64,000 nt of DNA from positions 1-64,000 of the forward strand of contig SVTL01000001.1 in NCBI GenBank assembly GCA_015063795.1. The letters are read 5' to 3'. The notes beneath the pieces were generated by a model. The model had not been told where the DNA came from. It saw nothing but the letters and a program-made list of their open reading frames with translations, and made no database searches. Source of the stretch: Oscillospiraceae bacterium (GTDB taxonomy: Bacteria; Bacillota; Clostridia; Oscillospirales; CAG-272). Below, one piece after another: positions 8,149-43,185 of this stretch (position 1 is the stretch's first letter; the number at the start of each line of letters is the position of its first letter). The position numbers and the translations under genes were made by a program.

Positions 8149-8183
8149 AAACTTGAAGAAAAATGTCAACTGCGGAGGTGTCA

Positions 8184-9695
8184 ATGAAACAAAGAAAATT
8201 TTCAGGTCTGCTGATTCTATTGGCATTCTTTTTGAGTTTTTCTCTTTCGATAACTGCAGTCAACACGGATTTCGACCATAACGGTGACAAAACGGAGGAT
8301 CGTATGGATGCCATTGCCTTGGCCAAGGCCATTCAAAACGGGGCGGATCATACGGTCTTTGATGTGATCGCTCTATTGAAACAAATCGTCGGCGACCGTG
8401 CAGCCGAGCCTGTTTCGGTGATCGGCGATGTGACAAACGCTTCGAAAATAAGCGAAGACCTTTCGGCGGGAACCATCCTGCTTCGTCAAAAGGCGCTGAC
8501 AACGAACAGTCCGGCCTTTACCTTTTCTCTCGGCGATGCTCCTCTTAAAGGTGAGGCCTTTGCCGTCAGCGGTACGATCCGGGCGAAAACGGAAGCGGGA
8601 CGTTCGGGGCACATTCAGTTCACCGCTTACCAAGATCGGTCCAATTTCGCCAACTTCATCATCAACCGCAGGGTGGACGGCGTAAACGGCGTTTATCGGA
8701 ACATGACCGCGGACGGAAAGCGGACGCCGAATTCGGGCAATCAAAAGGTTGACGAGAGTCTGGTTGATTCAACCGATTGGACGGCTTCGTTTGCGTTTGT
8801 CTTTGATCACGGGCAGATCGAGCTTTATCTAAAGGAAAGCGGAGAGGAATATCAGCTGATGGCCTCTTACGAGACCGACTGGAAAACGGCATCCGCTCAG
8901 TTCAAGCTGATCCAGTATGCAGACGTCACACTTTCTGATATAAAAATGAACATCAAAAACGAGGAGGTAAGCGCCTTGCGGAATGTATGGAAGGGACTTC
9001 CCGAAAATCCCATTGCTTCTTTGAAGCTTTTGTTTATCGGAAACAGCGCAACCTATGTGAACGAGATCCCGCAGACACTCAGCCGATTGGCAAGAAAAGC
9101 AGGATACGATGTGGAGGTGAATTCCATCACCTCGGGCGGGTATTCGCTCGCGCAGCATGCGGACAGTACCACCGATCACGGGAAAGAGGTTTTGAAAGAG
9201 ATCGCCAAGGGCTACGATATCGTCATTTTGCAGGAGCACAGCAACTGCATCGAGTCGGCTGAGAAGGGGCAGAAAACCTTTGAGGCGTGTAAGGTGTTGA
9301 ATCGGGCGATCCGCGAATCGGGAGCCGAAACCTACCTTTACATCCGTCCGCCAACGGGCGTTGACAAGGCAGGATACGATTCCTATGAGCAGTGCTTTGC
9401 TTATGGACGTCTTTTTGAGGATATTGCCGCGAAGCTGAAGGCGGAATGCGTGTTTGTGAACCGCGCTTATGCTTATGCGATCAAGAATCTGGAAGTTCCG
9501 CTGTGGGGGCCGGACAATGCCCACACCAGCGTTGAGGGCGGGTATATGGCGGTTTGTGTCTTTTTCTCCACCTTGTTTGACACCTCGTCCGCCGTCCTTG
9601 ACGACAACGGTCTCAGCGCGGATACCGCACTAACTCTCAAGCAGGCGGCTGACAAGATCGTGTTGGAAGGTCTTGAGATGAAACAGGATGCCTGA
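8184..9695 (+). CDS. Secreted SGNH/GDSL-type hydrolase with N-terminal dockerin-like repeat
   Basis: This 503-residue protein has a signal peptide (about residues 1-26), then a dockerin-like calcium-binding segment (DFDHNGDKTEDRMDAIALAKAI, followed by VFDVIALLKQIVG) directly after the cleavage site. A beta-rich middle domain (about 80-260) may bind carbohydrate. The C-terminal domain (about 275-490) carries the SGNH block I motif LLFIGNSATYVNEIP, a later IVILQEHSN and a PDNAHTSVEGGY block with the catalytic Asp and His; it resembles the DUF4886 group. It probably removes ester groups from polysaccharide outside the cell. The ATG at 8184 has GGAGGT upstream and begins the signal peptide; the earlier ATG at 8163 lacks one. 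Confidence 0.85.
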   Translation: MKQRKFSGLLILLAFFLSFSLSITAVNTDFDHNGDKTEDRMDAIALAKAIQNGADHTVFDVIALLKQIVGDRAAEPVSVIGDVTNASKISEDLSAGTILLRQKALTTNSPAFTFSLGDAPLKGEAFAVSGTIRAKTEAGRSGHIQFTAYQDRSNFANFIINRRVDGVNGVYRNMTADGKRTPNSGNQKVDESLVDSTDWTASFAFVFDHGQIELYLKESGEEYQLMASYETDWKTASAQFKLIQYADVTLSDIKMNIKNEEVSALRNVWKGLPENPIASLKLLFIGNSATYVNEIPQTLSRLARKAGYDVEVNSITSGGYSLAQHADSTTDHGKEVLKEIAKGYDIVILQEHSNCIESAEKGQKTFEACKVLNRAIRESGAETYLYIRPPTGVDKAGYDSYEQCFAYGRLFEDIAAKLKAECVFVNRAYAYAIKNLEVPLWGPDNAHTSVEGGYMAVCVFFSTLFDTSSAVLDDNGLSADTALTLKQAADKIVLEGLEMKQDA

Positions 9696-23700: not shown

Positions 23701-24135
23701 CTTCTCGGGGAAAAGCCGTTTGTCAATGTCACGCTCCGCAACGAGGGCAGTATGAGCGGAAGCGGAACGCTGAGCCTGAAGCGTGACGATGCCGACGGCA
23801 AGGTGATCTACAGCGAAAAGCTCACCCTTGATGACGGCGAGCAGAAGTATCTGCTTCTCGAGATCGTGGACGGATCGCTGGAGAAGATCTTTGTGGAATT
23901 CACGCCCGATGAGCCCGATTACTTTGAGGGCGACAACAGCACCGCCTGCTCGGTTTACCGCGGCATCAAGCTCCCTGCCGTGACCGATGCCATCGCGCTG
24001 ATTTCTGCCATTACAAGCGGCGAAACGCTGTCAAATGCCGATAAATGGTCATCCTATGACTACGACGGCGACGGCAGCGTGACCGTGCTCGATGTGATGG
24101 AGCTGATCCTGGTCATCACGGAAGCGACCGCATAA
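17758..24135 (+). CDS. Giant BspA-type leucine-rich-repeat surface protein with dockerin-like C-terminus
   Basis: This 2125-residue protein has a signal peptide (about residues 1-25). About 34 LRR_5-type repeats follow (to about residue 1000), each near 24 residues with the pattern LVIPDSVTTIGxxAFxxC. They fall in three blocks separated by non-repeat inserts; the first insert (VDENNVWYSDIDGVLLNKEG) is typical of BspA proteins. A carboxypeptidase-regulatory-like beta domain (about 1060-1140), a long beta-rich region, a propeller-like region (about 1510-1830) and two CARDB-like domains (about 1870-2060) come next. The end has one clear calcium loop, DYDGDGSVTVLDVMEL, like half a type I dockerin. 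It is probably a secreted adhesin or surface-complex component. Several repeats are nearly identical in DNA, while some are AT-rich and divergent. Confidence 0.93.
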   Translation: MKKLFFTLLTLTLLLALTAFPTSALQDGDFTYTVNSDGTATITGTTKKTGELNIPSTVGGYKVTAIGYYAFSGCSGLTGNLVIPDSVTTIGYSAFEGCSGLTGNLVIPDSVTTIGYSSFRNCSGLTGSLVIPDSVTVINNYAFYDCRGLTGNLVIPEGVTTIGNSAFSRCKGFTGALVIPDSVTTIGSSAFSSCSGLTGDLVIPDSVTTIGYSAFEGCSGLTGNLVIGDSVTTIGDGAFSGCSGLTGNLVIGDSVTTIGERAFIGCKGLTGNLVIPEGVTTIGEWAFYNCSGLTGDLVIGDSVRTIGNYTFRGCSGLTGIKVDENNVWYSDIDGVLLNKEGTVLLKYPEGKIGSYTIPSSVTAIGDYAFASCNGLTGNLVIPDSVTVINNYAFEDCSGLTGELVIGDSVTTIGSSAFSNCSGFTGDLVIPDSVTTIGDSAFSGCSGFNGKIVLPTGLTTIGFRMFFECSGLKGSLVIPEGVTEIGQSAFQNCRGLSGELVIPSSVVTIDKSAFYSCNFTGDLVIPDGVKTIGEFAFAFNNFTGALVIPESVTVIERYTFYNCSSLTEKLVISSNVTSIGENAFYNCSGLTGSLVIPSRVTTIGGSSFSGCIGLTTVVIPDSVTEIGGSAFNNCSGLSHAYFYGDVPSKWGVSVFSNNASDFIIHYIDGKAGWTSPTWISPDSFYHRVYNTAVFDPTIGEQDGFTYRKHDDKTATILSYSGTETDLAIPAVFNDHMGDYTAKAIGAKAFQNGASLRSVIIPASVQSIGDYAFENCTGLLTVRMENGVKTIGSNAFKGCSALASVSLSDQITSIGACAFYECKALAGEFAFPSGVKTISNCVLEGCAGLTAVVIPEGVTSIGYAAFSDCQSLVSVTIPDSVEAVGIKAFYRCHTLERAVLPGNLKVIESMLFYGCRSLSDILIPSSVTAIGDSAFYACKSLAEIRIPASVTEIGASAFKFCQSLSDIEIPASVSSIGNGAFAACSALQNAYFLGNVPGNWGGMVFDVNSSFTIHYLNGRSGWTTPEWTAPDSRVYKAEPIKPSFDEDSVGSGPVDGGTVSFKLFSLKVLDETNQNPIKGAEITFGGVTVKTDADGAAVFELPEAENVALSVCAEGFAAFSDEVYGNFNNHAFDIIQLHRQSDAVLLPISCNGKSISNSAVQINNRADLMAEIVVSGSSFWEITGYTLKQGYTVLGENQSGKFSVHNSCFKKNLPILVIMSVDGCDDVTEILNITVASFTFFPTDFPLGADTIKVPADVALFGGLELKIGGEKEQVEFEITNNQIKVGYNLNVKEKELSYVAKEFLNKKNYLVQQEATSNLSFDYAGYIVIDIGNNSVSNLQGQIFLVAKYSYEFGRTYILFLPIYVGIELSAEGQVIINRFGYDFDNAKLVWPSLDASIGGGVTLRGGASIWFASAGVYGSGKMNFLFGVLPKFMLKKWGLTGEFGLYARAKFLGEAKLPLVSGELVLYAPDRPSILSSIQMNGASLYDADLSEYSRASLSTGAWNAGVAAGTLQTDVGSFADPQIVTAGSTTLMVFLADNGGTDEYNYQQLVYSLWNGSGWDVPKAVDGNALSDAEYSLYSDGTSIYLAYTQAKRLMTSSDTASDCASLAEVAVTVFDAEKGCFAEPVVLTDDASFDTQPSLTSLNGSPVLVWAKNTDNNLFGMSENNALYISRLTDGAWTAPALLAEKTDAVMTLSIGSFDGANAVAAAVHDDDNDFTTASDSVLVLYAADGTTRSLPVGAYENAVFAESGLYWYENGTLSRLTSMNGEAETVSQSLSADSAADFDVIADEDNAYILYRVYNTEGENGGSDLYAITSTASGWTSPVRLTETAGYVDSFDAVWSDGALLTVYRRTDVTFTADSFDTTSDLCSALIRPAVSLKVTDITYDHEELFDDDQLTLTVCVTNRGTLPADAYTLTVGGRTETYAEPIASGETKELTVVCTIAEDTSFATVTVSDASGVSHSESIAVAFADFTVAAEGKLLGEKPFVNVTLRNEGSMSGSGTLSLKRDDADGKVIYSEKLTLDDGEQKYLLLEIVDGSLEKIFVEFTPDEPDYFEGDNSTACSVYRGIKLPAVTDAIALISAITSGETLSNADKWSSYDYDGDGSVTVLDVMELILVITEATA
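17947..18719 (+). repeat. Tandem 72-bp LRR-coding repeats, block 1
   Basis: About 11 in-frame units of 72 bases encode the LRR_5 consensus. Neighbouring units share long identical stretches at DNA level, for example the CAGCGGCTTGACGGGC start, so the array has expanded or been homogenised recently. It may vary in copy number between strains. Confidence 0.92.
18830..19668 (+). repeat. LRR-coding repeats, block 2, with an AT-rich divergent core
   Basis: About 12 further repeat units follow. The first four resemble block 1. Units between about 19080 and 19560 use AT-rich codons and differ in DNA although the protein pattern persists. The last unit returns to the local composition. This mosaic suggests that recombination brought in repeats from another LRR gene. 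Confidence 0.85.
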
Positions 24136-33791: not shown

Positions 33792-33820
33792 TTGACAAGC
33801 AAGAGGGGAAATGGTATAAT
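33792..33820 (+). promoter_or_regulatory. Strong sigma-A promoter of the dockerin-only protein gene
   Basis: Perfect TTGACA (33792-33797) and perfect TATAAT (33815-33820) are spaced by 17 bases. This is the best consensus promoter in the window and predicts high expression of a very small gene. Confidence 0.93.
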
Positions 33821-33860
33821 AACAGCGTATTCTTTAATTCCAATCACGGAGGAGCGAACC

Positions 33861-34148
33861 ATGAAAAAGTTTTCGCGCATTCTTCTTTTGGCCCTTGCCG
33901 TTCTGATGATGGCAACGATGGCTGTCTCCGCAGCTGACTATGATATCAACAATGACAGCAATGTTAACGATGCCGACGTTCAGGCTCTCATTGAGCACAT
34001 TGCCAACGGCGGCGGTTATATCTCGGCTTATGACATTCGTCCCGATTCTGTTGCAACGATCAACATTCTCGATGCCATCGCTCTGAAGGCATATGTGAAC
34101 GGTGCGATCCTTCCTGCTGACGACAACTGGACGAGTTACTGGTATTGA
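33861..34148 (+). CDS. Small secreted dockerin-like protein (95 aa)
   Basis: A signal peptide (about residues 1-24) is followed almost at once by a dockerin-like pair of calcium loops: DINNDSNVNDADVQALIEHI and the more divergent RPDSVATINILDAIALKAYV. Nothing else is encoded, so the mature protein is essentially a free dockerin of about 70 residues. GGAGGA lies before the ATG, and it has its own strong promoter and terminator. Dockerins normally attach enzymes to cohesins; a stand-alone one could be a competitor, a cap or a regulator of a surface complex. No cohesin is visible in the window. Confidence 0.82.
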   Translation: MKKFSRILLLALAVLMMATMAVSAADYDINNDSNVNDADVQALIEHIANGGGYISAYDIRPDSVATINILDAIALKAYVNGAILPADDNWTSYWY

Positions 34149-34167
34149 TCCGTATTTTTGAAACGAA

Positions 34168-34198
34168 AGACGGGCGGCTTTTTGATGCCGCCCGTTTC
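34168..34198 (+). terminator. Terminator of the dockerin-only gene
   Basis: CGGGCGGC and GCCGCCCG form a perfect 8-bp stem closed by TTTTTGAT and followed by a short T-run (TTTCTG). Confidence 0.85.
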
Positions 34199-34256: not shown

Positions 34257-34934
34257 ATGTTTGACATTCACGATCCCACGCCTTTGGAGATCCTCCGCAA
34301 GACCGACCACACCTGTCTGAAGCAGGACGCGGTCTGGGAGGACATCAAAGCCCTTTGCGACGATGCGATGCATATGAACGTCGCTTCGGTCTGCATTCCG
34401 CCCTCCTATGTCAAAAAGGCGTATTTTTATCTGACCGGACGGATGAAGATCTGCACGGTCATCGGCTTCCCCAATGGCTACTCCACCACCAACGCCAAGG
34501 TGTACGAGGCGGCGGAGGCTCTGCGTGACGGTGCGGATGAGATCGATATGGTCATCAACATCGGCTGGGCGAAGGCGGGACGCTTTGACAAGATCGGAGA
34601 GGAGATCTCCGCCATCCGCTCGGTCTGTAAGGACAGAGTGCTCAAGGTCATCGTGGAGACCTGCCTGCTGAATGAGGAGGAGAAGATCGCGCTCTGCGAA
34701 ACGGTGGCGGCGTCGGGTGCCGACTTCATCAAAACCTCCACCGGCTTTTCCACCGGCGGTGCAACGGTGGAGGATATCCGGCTCTTCCGCGCCCATCTGC
34801 CGGCCAAGGTGAAGATCAAGGCGGCGGGCGGGATCCGTTCGCTGGAGGAAGCCAACGATCTGCTGAAGGCGGGGGCAAGCCGCATCGGCAGCAGCCGTCT
34901 GGTGGACGAAGTGAAGAAGCTCACGCTTCGCTGA
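34257..34934 (+). CDS. deoC: Deoxyribose-phosphate aldolase
   Basis: At 225 residues this is a typical DeoC TIM barrel. It has DHTCLKQDA near residue 16, DEIDMVINIG near 95, the Schiff-base lysine in DFIKTSTGFSTGGAT near 157, and the proton-relay lysine in VKIKAAGGIRS near 185. It splits 2-deoxyribose-5-phosphate into glyceraldehyde-3-phosphate and acetaldehyde for nucleoside salvage. AAGGAG precedes the start at 34257. No other nucleoside-catabolic gene is next to it; the following VanZ-like gene starts 3 bases after its stop. Confidence 0.96.
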   Translation: MFDIHDPTPLEILRKTDHTCLKQDAVWEDIKALCDDAMHMNVASVCIPPSYVKKAYFYLTGRMKICTVIGFPNGYSTTNAKVYEAAEALRDGADEIDMVINIGWAKAGRFDKIGEEISAIRSVCKDRVLKVIVETCLLNEEEKIALCETVAASGADFIKTSTGFSTGGATVEDIRLFRAHLPAKVKIKAAGGIRSLEEANDLLKAGASRIGSSRLVDEVKKLTLR

Positions 34935-40452: not shown

Positions 40453-41802
40453 TTATTTGTAGTATTCCTTCATAGGAGCGTTGAAAGGCATATCCAGAAT
40501 CTCGTTCAGCAGCGTTTCGGCCTGCTCGCGGGTTCTGGTCCAGGGATCCATGCAGATCAGATCGAGCAGCAGATCGCGGCTGCGGTTGGTATAAGCTTCC
40601 AATTCCATGTTGGCAGGAGCGATACGGTCGCGCATCATCCATGCCTGAATGGGCTTGGGCAGGGGCTTGGTGTGCAGACCCTGTACGCCGCGGGCGGAGA
40701 TGATGGCAGGGATCTCACAGTTGAAGTCGGTGGGGACACCCTCCACATAGCCCTTGTCGTTGATGGTGTTGACCACGATCTTCTTCTCCACATCAAAGGC
40801 CAAAGCCTCGATGACGGGGATCATGGGCTCGGAGGAGCGCTGCAGCTTGTAGGACTCGGTGACCTTCTTTTCCTTGTTGAAGGCAACGTAGTTCATAAAG
40901 TTGATCTGCTTGCGGCTTCTCTCAAAGTAGTCCATATACCAGCCGGTGGGATCCTCGTTCCACTTGGCCTCCACCTCGGGAGAGGTGTGGTAGAAGTGGC
41001 CCCAGCTTCCGCCGCCGGGCACACAGGTGTCGCCGATGGGGAACACGCCGTAGCGCTTATACAGGTCAACAGCCTTCGGGCTGATCTTCTGGCTCTTGGC
41101 AGGATGCTCCTTCAGGTACTCAGGCAGCTTTTCTTCGATCCACTGATCCAGCAGCGGGAAAGCGTCCTTGCCCTCATACTTGAAGTCGTTGAGCCACAGG
41201 AAGTGGTTGACACCGGGGCAGATGTAGCTGACCTTGGACAGGTCAAGTCCCATGGTGTAGGCCAGGTTGCGCGCGTTGTTGGAGCCGTGGCACATACCGA
41301 TGATCTTGCAGCCGGGGTACTTTCTGTGGAAGTAGGTGGTGGCGGCCATGACGGGGTTGGCGACCATGATCAGCCAGGCATTGGGGCAGATGTCCTGCAT
41401 ATCCAGATAGATGCTCTCCATCAGCTGATACTGATGGAAGTTGATCCAGAAGGACTCGTCGTGAACGATGTGCTGGCTGCCGCCGAAGGTATAGCCGTTC
41501 TTCTTGGCGATGTTCCAGCCGTCGATCATATAGTCGTAGCCGCCGGGCATGGCGGTGTCAATCACGAAGTCGGCGTTTTTGAGAGCGGTCTTACGGTTCA
41601 GGGTTTTGGTGATCTTGAACTTGATGCCGATCTCCTTGGCAAAACGGGTGCAGAGGGTGTAAGCAATGTTCAGCTTCTCCTCGTTGATGTCCATCATGCA
41701 GAGCGTGGAGCCGTCCAGATACTTGGACAGGCACATATCCTTGATCAGGTTCAGCGAGAAAACACCGCTTCCTGCACCGATCAGAGCAATTTTGATTCCC
41801 AT
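40453..41802 (-). CDS. Glycoside hydrolase family 4 enzyme, copy 2
   Basis: This 449-residue protein has the GH4 Rossmann start KIALIGAGSGVFSLNLIKDM, which binds NAD, and conserved metal- and substrate-binding motifs NPVMAATTY, IIGMCHGSNN (cysteine) and CPGVNHFLWLNDF (histidine). GH4 enzymes cleave glycosides by a redox mechanism with NAD and manganese. Substrates range from alpha-glucosides to galacturonides and cannot be read by eye; the closest recalled group is LplD/alpha-galacturonidase-like. It is nearly identical to the GH4 gene just upstream, the differences lying mainly in the middle (residues 215-340). It ends the operon. Confidence 0.92.
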   Translation of the reverse strand: MGIKIALIGAGSGVFSLNLIKDMCLSKYLDGSTLCMMDINEEKLNIAYTLCTRFAKEIGIKFKITKTLNRKTALKNADFVIDTAMPGGYDYMIDGWNIAKKNGYTFGGSQHIVHDESFWINFHQYQLMESIYLDMQDICPNAWLIMVANPVMAATTYFHRKYPGCKIIGMCHGSNNARNLAYTMGLDLSKVSYICPGVNHFLWLNDFKYEGKDAFPLLDQWIEEKLPEYLKEHPAKSQKISPKAVDLYKRYGVFPIGDTCVPGGGSWGHFYHTSPEVEAKWNEDPTGWYMDYFERSRKQINFMNYVAFNKEKKVTESYKLQRSSEPMIPVIEALAFDVEKKIVVNTINDKGYVEGVPTDFNCEIPAIISARGVQGLHTKPLPKPIQAWMMRDRIAPANMELEAYTNRSRDLLLDLICMDPWTRTREQAETLLNEILDMPFNAPMKEYYK

Positions 41803-41835
41803 GGTGTTGTGTATTCCTTTCCGAAAACGTAGATC

Positions 41836-43185
41836 TTATTTGTAATATTCCTTCATGTCAGCGTTGAAGGGCATATCCAGAATATCCTTCAGCAGGTTTT
41901 CGGCCTGCTCGCGGGTTCTGGTCCAGGGATCCATGCAGATCAGATCGAGCAGCAGATCGCGGCTGCGGTTGGTGTAAGCCTCCAGCTCCATGTTGGCGGG
42001 GGCGATACGGTCGCGCATCATCCAGGCCTGAATGGGCTTGGGCAGGGGCTTGGTGTGCAGACCCTGTACGCCGCGTGCGGAGACGATGGCAGGGATCTCG
42101 CAGTTGAAGTCGGTGGGAACGCCCTCCACATAGCCCTTGTCGTTGACGATGTTGACCACGATCTTCTTCTCCACGTCGAAGGCCAGTGCTTCCACAACGG
42201 GGATCATGGGCTCAGAGGAGCGAACCAGCTTATAGGTGTCGGTGATCTTCTTGGACATATCGAAGGCGGCGGCGTTCATGTCGGCGATGCGCTTGGTGCC
42301 GCGCTCAAAGTAGCCCTCATACCAGCCGGTGGGATCCTCGTTCCACTTGGCCTCCACCTCGGGGGAGGTGTGGTAGAAGTGGCCCCAGCTTCCGCCACCG
42401 GGCACGCAGGTGTCGCCGATGGGGAACACGCCGTAGCGCTTGTACAGGTCCACGCCCTTCAAGCCGATGCCGCGGCTCTTCTCAGGATGCTCGGCGAGGA
42501 ACTGAGGGAATTTTTCCTCGATCCACTGATCCAGCAGCGGGAAGGCGTCCTTACCCTCGTAAGTAAATTCATTGAGCCACAGGAAGTGGTTGACACCGGG
42601 GCAGCAAACGCCGACCTTGGACGTGTCAAGGCCGATGGTCTTGGCCAGATTCTTGGCGTTGTTGGAGCCGTGGCACATACCGATGATCTTGCAGCCGGGA
42701 TATTTGCGGTTGAAATAGGTGGTGGCGGCCATGACGGGGTTGGCGACCAGGATCATCCAGGCGTTGGGGCAGATGTCCTGCATATCCAGATAGATGCTCT
42801 CCATCAGCTGATACTGATGGAAGTTGATCCAGAAGGACTCGTCGTGAACGATGTGCTGGCTGCCGCCGAAGGTATAGCCGTTCTTCTTGGCGATGTTCCA
42901 GCCCTCGCGCATATAGTCATAGCCGCCGGGCATGGCGGTGTTGATGACGAAATCGGCGTTCTTCAGTGCGGTCTTGCGGTTCAGGGTCTTGGTGATCTTG
43001 AACTTGATGCCGATCTCCTTGGCGAAGCGGGAGCAGAACTTATAGGCGGTGTTCAGCTTCTCCTCGTTGATGTCCATCATGCAGAGGGTGGAGCCGTCCA
43101 GATACTTGGACAGGCACATATCGCGGATAAGATTCAGCGAAAAGGTACCGCTTCCCGCACCGATCAGAGCAATTTTAATTGACAT
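41836..43185 (-). CDS. Glycoside hydrolase family 4 enzyme, copy 1
   Basis: This is a 449-residue paralogue of the next gene, the same length and colinear throughout, with the same NAD-binding start (KIALIGAGSGTFSLNLIRDM) and catalytic motifs (IGMCHGSNN, CPGVNHFLWLNEF). Long stretches are identical at protein level, including about residues 100-150 and the last 120. AAGGAG-like sequence precedes the start. The pair arose by tandem duplication and may have slightly different sugar specificities. The 33 bases between them hold only the next ribosome site. Confidence 0.92.
   Translation of the reverse strand: MSIKIALIGAGSGTFSLNLIRDMCLSKYLDGSTLCMMDINEEKLNTAYKFCSRFAKEIGIKFKITKTLNRKTALKNADFVINTAMPGGYDYMREGWNIAKKNGYTFGGSQHIVHDESFWINFHQYQLMESIYLDMQDICPNAWMILVANPVMAATTYFNRKYPGCKIIGMCHGSNNAKNLAKTIGLDTSKVGVCCPGVNHFLWLNEFTYEGKDAFPLLDQWIEEKFPQFLAEHPEKSRGIGLKGVDLYKRYGVFPIGDTCVPGGGSWGHFYHTSPEVEAKWNEDPTGWYEGYFERGTKRIADMNAAAFDMSKKITDTYKLVRSSEPMIPVVEALAFDVEKKIVVNIVNDKGYVEGVPTDFNCEIPAIVSARGVQGLHTKPLPKPIQAWMMRDRIAPANMELEAYTNRSRDLLLDLICMDPWTRTREQAENLLKDILDMPFNADMKEYYK

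Follow-up and report, generated by a model that had tools for sequence, protein, structure and literature searches.

The gene at positions 33861-34148 (+ strand) of the window, the 64,000-nucleotide stretch of DNA that we analyzed, is genuine and encodes a small secreted dockerin protein made of one half-degenerate docking module and a short aromatic tail. Stand-alone genes combining a signal peptide with a dockerin recur in related Clostridia. We tentatively read the product as a plug bound to a cohesin or an adaptor that displays its tail, with a probability of about 40%, and place second the reading in which it is a relic of a larger protein.

A probably secreted dockerin with its own transcription unit

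The open reading frame comprises 95 codons plus a stop, with the ATG at 33861 and the stop ending at 34148. Its first 24 residues (33861-33932) read as a signal peptide with a predicted cleavage site AVSA|ADYD after A24, through which the protein is probably exported; removal of this peptide leaves 71 residues. Residues 27-80 (33939-34100) match Pfam Dockerin_1 (PF00404) with 24.2 bits, against a curated cut-off of 22.9. The AlphaFold2 model, computed from an alignment of 7 sequences, has a mean pLDDT of 79 and contains two main helices, with both repeat helices present. In a Foldseek search against the PDB, the best 28 of 31 matches were dockerins; all E-values were above 0.04, which we attribute to the small size of the dockerin domain. 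The best match in VIA-align was 2vn5_D (Z 8.7, rmsd 1.2, 54 residues aligned). The product is thus modeled as a dockerin fold with one good calcium site, and the open reading frame, predicted signal peptide, Pfam match, and structure model all agree with the stand-alone, secreted, dockerin-like protein proposed in the initial annotation.

That annotation also described a product of about 70 residues that is little more than two calcium loops. The size holds, and loop 1 (DINNDSNVNDAD, residues 28-39, 33942-33977) is canonical, with every ligand position fitting, and would be expected to bind calcium. However, sequence and alignment show loop 2 (DIRPDSVATINILD, residues 58-71, 34032-34073) to be degenerate, with either two inserted residues or ligand positions occupied by the wrong residues, and the C-terminal tail ADDNWTSYWY (34116-34145, + strand), delimited by comparison, had been missed. 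No known motif was matched by tails of this type, and the model has low confidence there (pLDDT block means of 59 and 43). An intramolecular clasp formed by the aromatic tail, of the kind reported for Ruminococcus flavefaciens ScaA, was considered and rejected, given that the models were unsupportive, with no predicted packing of this low-confidence tail on the domain.

Upstream of the gene lies a sigma-A-type promoter (33792-33820, + strand), TTGACA-17-TATAAT with an extended -10 (TG), scoring 12/12 with its 17-nt spacer, followed by a ribosome-binding site, GGAGGAG (33848-33854), read 6 nt before the ATG. With this promoter and ribosome site of its own, the gene forms a separate transcription unit. 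The promoter is indeed the best of the window and its only perfect one (1 found versus 0.02 expected). It is strong yet not special, since the 2.16-Mb genome holds 87 equally perfect sites (spacer 16-18), or about 1 per 25 kb, the reversed pattern giving 0. A terminator had been claimed as well, and this was borne out in part: a strong terminator-like hairpin, ACGGGCGGC...GCCGCCCGT, follows at 34170-34195 (recorded without a strand), and the 70 nt after the stop fold with -23.9 kcal/mol, but the + strand offers only a weak T tract, with a better one on the - strand, the only strand for which a terminator scan scored the hairpin. The next gene (34257-34934, + strand), which from its sequence we take to be deoC-like, has its own ribosome site. 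No + strand promoter of at least 9/12 was found by the scan between the dockerin promoter and this gene, so that read-through from the former may feed it. The suggestion that the product is likely abundant was not supported. A first, cruder index (U-ending codons in Ala, Val, and Gly plus CGN Arg) ranked the gene among the highest 2% of 143 ORFs, at about the 98th percentile. Its codon adaptation relative to four ribosomal protein genes, however, is ordinary (68th percentile of 190 ORFs) and gives no support for high expression. Elsewhere in the window, two adjacent and similar 449-aa ORFs (40453-43185, - strand) have high codon adaptation and presumably represent a duplicated GH4-type gene.

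Stand-alone dockerins in related Clostridia

When 395 family genomes were searched with the window protein (E ≤ 0.01), 62 had matches, mostly in long open frames and a few in short ones. Stand-alone signal-peptide-plus-dockerin genes were read in G273, G120, G062, and G131, and also in G078. With profile A1, built from four sequences, the next hits after its own members were G248 (67 bits) and G175 (63 bits), both stand-alone; long proteins reached at most 52 bits, with matches mostly ending before the tail. Further stand-alone genes were identified in G163 and G241, and a search of 394 genomes of the order with profile A4 added G079, G639, G692 (two genes), G737, and G485. With two genes from the window's own genome, and with G131 joining the 16 retained genes manually, the examined set comprises 17 genes in 15 genomes. 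It is a minimum rather than a complete census, as further short frames with matches exist outside it, for example in G692. Candidates were dropped as stand-alone genes when their short frames showed no dockerin (G307, G411, and G354), when they were open at a contig end (G101 and G280:C307) or cut by contig ends (G732 and G479), or when the apparent gene began at a start codon inside a longer one (L006); the frames of G279 (244 aa), G686 (205 aa), and G435 (216 aa) were also removed. Two loci carry additional features: three neighboring signal-peptide-plus-dockerin genes lie in G692 (L188:2125-3442, + strand), two of them ending in the same tail, DDDEHNAIIDWR, and short-unit repeats were seen in the ORF translation beside the stand-alone dockerin of G163 (L142:2903-3286, - strand).

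Close orthologues of the window copy itself were sought among the genome contigs, where 111 pattern matches yielded 0 confirmed cases. At E ≤ 0.001, the window protein had matches in 4 of 59 family genomes, namely its own and three others, the latter weak and in long open frames. The window's genus is represented by a single genome and offers no sister species in which retention of this copy could be seen.

Many of the stand-alone genes have transcription signals of their own. Eight of 11 have a promoter of at least 9/12, with the end of the -10 element lying 34-46 nt upstream of the ATG; six of these eight promoters reach 11/12 or 12/12. For comparison, a 19-kb part of the window contains only two sites that reach 11/12 on its two strands together. 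A strong hairpin follows the stop in 10 of the 11. The remaining three, all from genus g80, stand directly behind a 6S RNA gene that ends about 12-14 nt before the ATG (L106:2626-2837, + strand; L141:3274-3485, - strand; L140:3122-3333, - strand; three g80 species). In Rfam, the 6S score of G273 (54.1 bits) is over the gathering threshold of 46.4, and those of G175 (46.1) and G248 (44.0) are just under it; the upstream DNA of G079 aligns with the g80 6S regions, and Rfam made no 6S call there. The order of 6S RNA and dockerin genes is reminiscent of ssrS-ygfA in E. coli. Members of g80 include the MAGs SIG658 (Oscillospiraceae bacterium), RGIG3011 (goat rectum), and RGIG279 (dairy cattle cecum).

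Stand-alone genes are also kept in place across species, at 6S/argG in g80 and near prfB in genus g63, in which three members share a neighborhood of genes that, from their sequences, we take to be prfB-like and permease-like. Among nine pairs of relatives, pN/pS ranged from 0.32 to 0.69, with dS near or at saturation; these values below 1 show purifying selection on the stand-alone dockerins of relatives.

The tail recurs among these proteins. Defined as [DEN]x(0-2)[GND][WFY][TSV] in the final 14 residues, the motif occurs in 10 of 17 stand-alone proteins and, among the fetched loci, in none of the 72 long dockerin ORFs whose ends are complete (Fisher p 4e-9). This comparison is to be read with care: the motif was defined once the sequences had been seen, some members were recovered by profiles in which the tail was present, and the 10 sequences make up five groups (g1, g80, g63, a second g63 locus, and g181), those of the same genus being related. 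For G120, G062, and G131, the first-search match ended before the tail, and they were therefore not selected by it. The window protein has the features that define the class, with a signal peptide, one dockerin, and the tail motif in its last 14 residues. Two of the 17 lack the tail, and in others it bears only a loose resemblance. A looser test, requiring an aromatic residue among the final 8 positions and two acidic residues among the final 16, gave 15/17 versus 25/72, and discriminates poorly because it also passes the two tail-less proteins. Related tails end two longer proteins as well, of 190 aa in G692 and 410 aa in G639.

Cohesins and dockerins in the genome and family

The genome assembly (29 contigs, 93.7% complete) contains 23 dockerin matches at E ≤ 0.001 and two cohesin matches over the cut-off, the latter in two neighboring proteins on contig C2 (L022:3889-8215, - strand; Pfam). 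The first is a 333-aa cohesin-dockerin protein, and the second, of 1,091 aa, has an N-terminal cohesin followed by Ig-like and Flg_new repeats. The cohesin of the larger protein was not listed in the full-length Pfam scan, and its first 170 residues alone gave 46.6 bits; we take its omission to be a filter effect. This pair is possibly a minimal docking system. No scaffoldin with several cohesins was found in the genome, where these two matches were the only ones and a further one may have been missed in an assembly 93.7% complete. Dockerin-bearing enzymes do exist: the nine proteins scanned include SASA esterase-like and transglutaminase-like ones that carry dockerins. When the 23 matches are taken together with three weak protein matches and the window gene, only 2 of the 27 dockerin places lie in short proteins: the window gene and C16:5264-5593, a second lone dockerin of 109 aa with an 11/12 promoter and without a tail like ADDNWTSYWY. 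Two more ORFs of the window touch on dockerins. The one at 8163-9695 (+ strand, 510 aa) has a dockerin-like stretch after its signal peptide, for which Pfam gave nothing at E ≤ 0.001, and one ending at 24135 (+ strand, open frame of 2127 aa) has a C-terminal dockerin match at 23983-24108.

Across 59 family genomes, the window's own included, dockerins were found in 38 and cohesins in 31. Both occur in 30 genomes, dockerins only in 8, cohesins only in 1, and neither in 20 (Fisher p 2.7e-8, for genomes that are not independent). Cohesins are encoded in all 15 genomes with stand-alone dockerins, versus 31 of 59 in the family. The proposal that a free dockerin could occupy or block cohesins thus gains from the two cohesins encoded in the same genome, but the conservation of the loops is mixed, with loop 2 degenerate in the window protein and, according to the alignment, the loops largely lost in the related stand-alone proteins of G062 and G163.

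Possible roles of a lone dockerin

In the reading that we prefer, the protein would be exported through its signal peptide and, as modeled, adopt a dockerin fold in which one calcium site is good. Its first repeat would then most likely dock, in only one orientation, with one of the genome's own two cohesin proteins. Carrying neither an enzyme nor a binding domain, it would plug that cohesin or, more specifically, display its aromatic tail as an adaptor. Known systems offer points of comparison. The type I dockerins of cellulosomal enzymes (2vn5/2vn6, Clostridium cellulolyticum) are alike in fold, loop 1, and domain length, but the window protein differs from them in having no enzyme, a degenerate second loop, and an extra C-terminal tail. 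Group 2 dockerins of R. flavefaciens likewise have only the first calcium-binding repeat recognizable, as described in PMC2930009. According to PMC5934362, the R. flavefaciens ScaA dockerin (PDB 5n5p) has a similarly disrupted second loop and nevertheless binds its cohesin, using only one binding mode, so that a disrupted loop 2 does not exclude binding; it differs in its 12-residue insertion and its known cohesin partner. The layout of ScaC-type cohesin-dockerin adaptors, as given in PMC4081043, is that of the genome's own 333-aa protein, whereas the window protein has no cohesin.

A rather unlikely alternative, though the second in rank, is that the gene is a relic, with the downstream domain lost and only the 5′ part of a larger gene for a signal peptide and N-terminal dockerin left to drift. 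Several large proteins of the genome carry a dockerin directly after the signal peptide (on C10, C7, C3, and C6, and at 8163-9695 of the window), and one such protein is the best own-genome match to the window protein, at 37% over residues 7-81. The degenerate loop 2 and the failure of the ortholog search point the same way. Against such decay, the promoter, ribosome site, and hairpin are intact, stand-alone genes are kept in place in g80 and g63 with pN/pS below 1, and the tail is common to stand-alone proteins.

The protein could also act purely as a plug or competitor that occupies cohesins and regulates assembly, its tail being irrelevant, which we find unlikely. A single-module protein would suit this role, and with two cohesins facing 23 dockerin matches a free dockerin could compete for them; however, the recurrent tail is left unexplained, and there is no sign of affinity or abundance, codon adaptation being ordinary. 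Conversely, the tail might be the active part, for example as a motif recognized at the surface or in export, or as a peptide that is released, with the dockerin merely its carrier. In g63, loops decay and a tail ending in GIY stays, and since G062 and G163 have lost more of their loops but keep the tail, it may there be the tail, and not the docking face, that matters. Its extreme C-terminal position in most members and the related tails of the two longer proteins fit as well, but the lack of a match to a known motif and the two tail-less stand-alone proteins make this improbable for the window protein. A calcium buffer, also suggested initially, is very improbable: loop 1 is canonical, but the 71 residues hold no more than one good site, and the loops are lost in relatives.

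The dockerin module is of a known kind, and its cargo-free, tailed, and separately transcribed form is a variant for which no description, whether as a lone, free, or orphan dockerin or as a dockerin with 6S RNA, was found in the open-access literature, most subscription papers lying outside this scope. As a more general and quite speculative proposal, less probable than the reading that we prefer for the window protein, the secreted lone dockerins of gut Clostridia might park on a surface cohesin while their aromatic tail recruits or signals, with expression tied to 6S RNA transcription in one genus. Cohesin-dockerin pairing is normally described as a means of enzyme attachment. If the preferred reading of a plug or tail-displaying adaptor is true, the system would also use free plugs or adaptors that could regulate or cap surface complexes, and this would concern gut bacteria other than the classical cellulosome producers.
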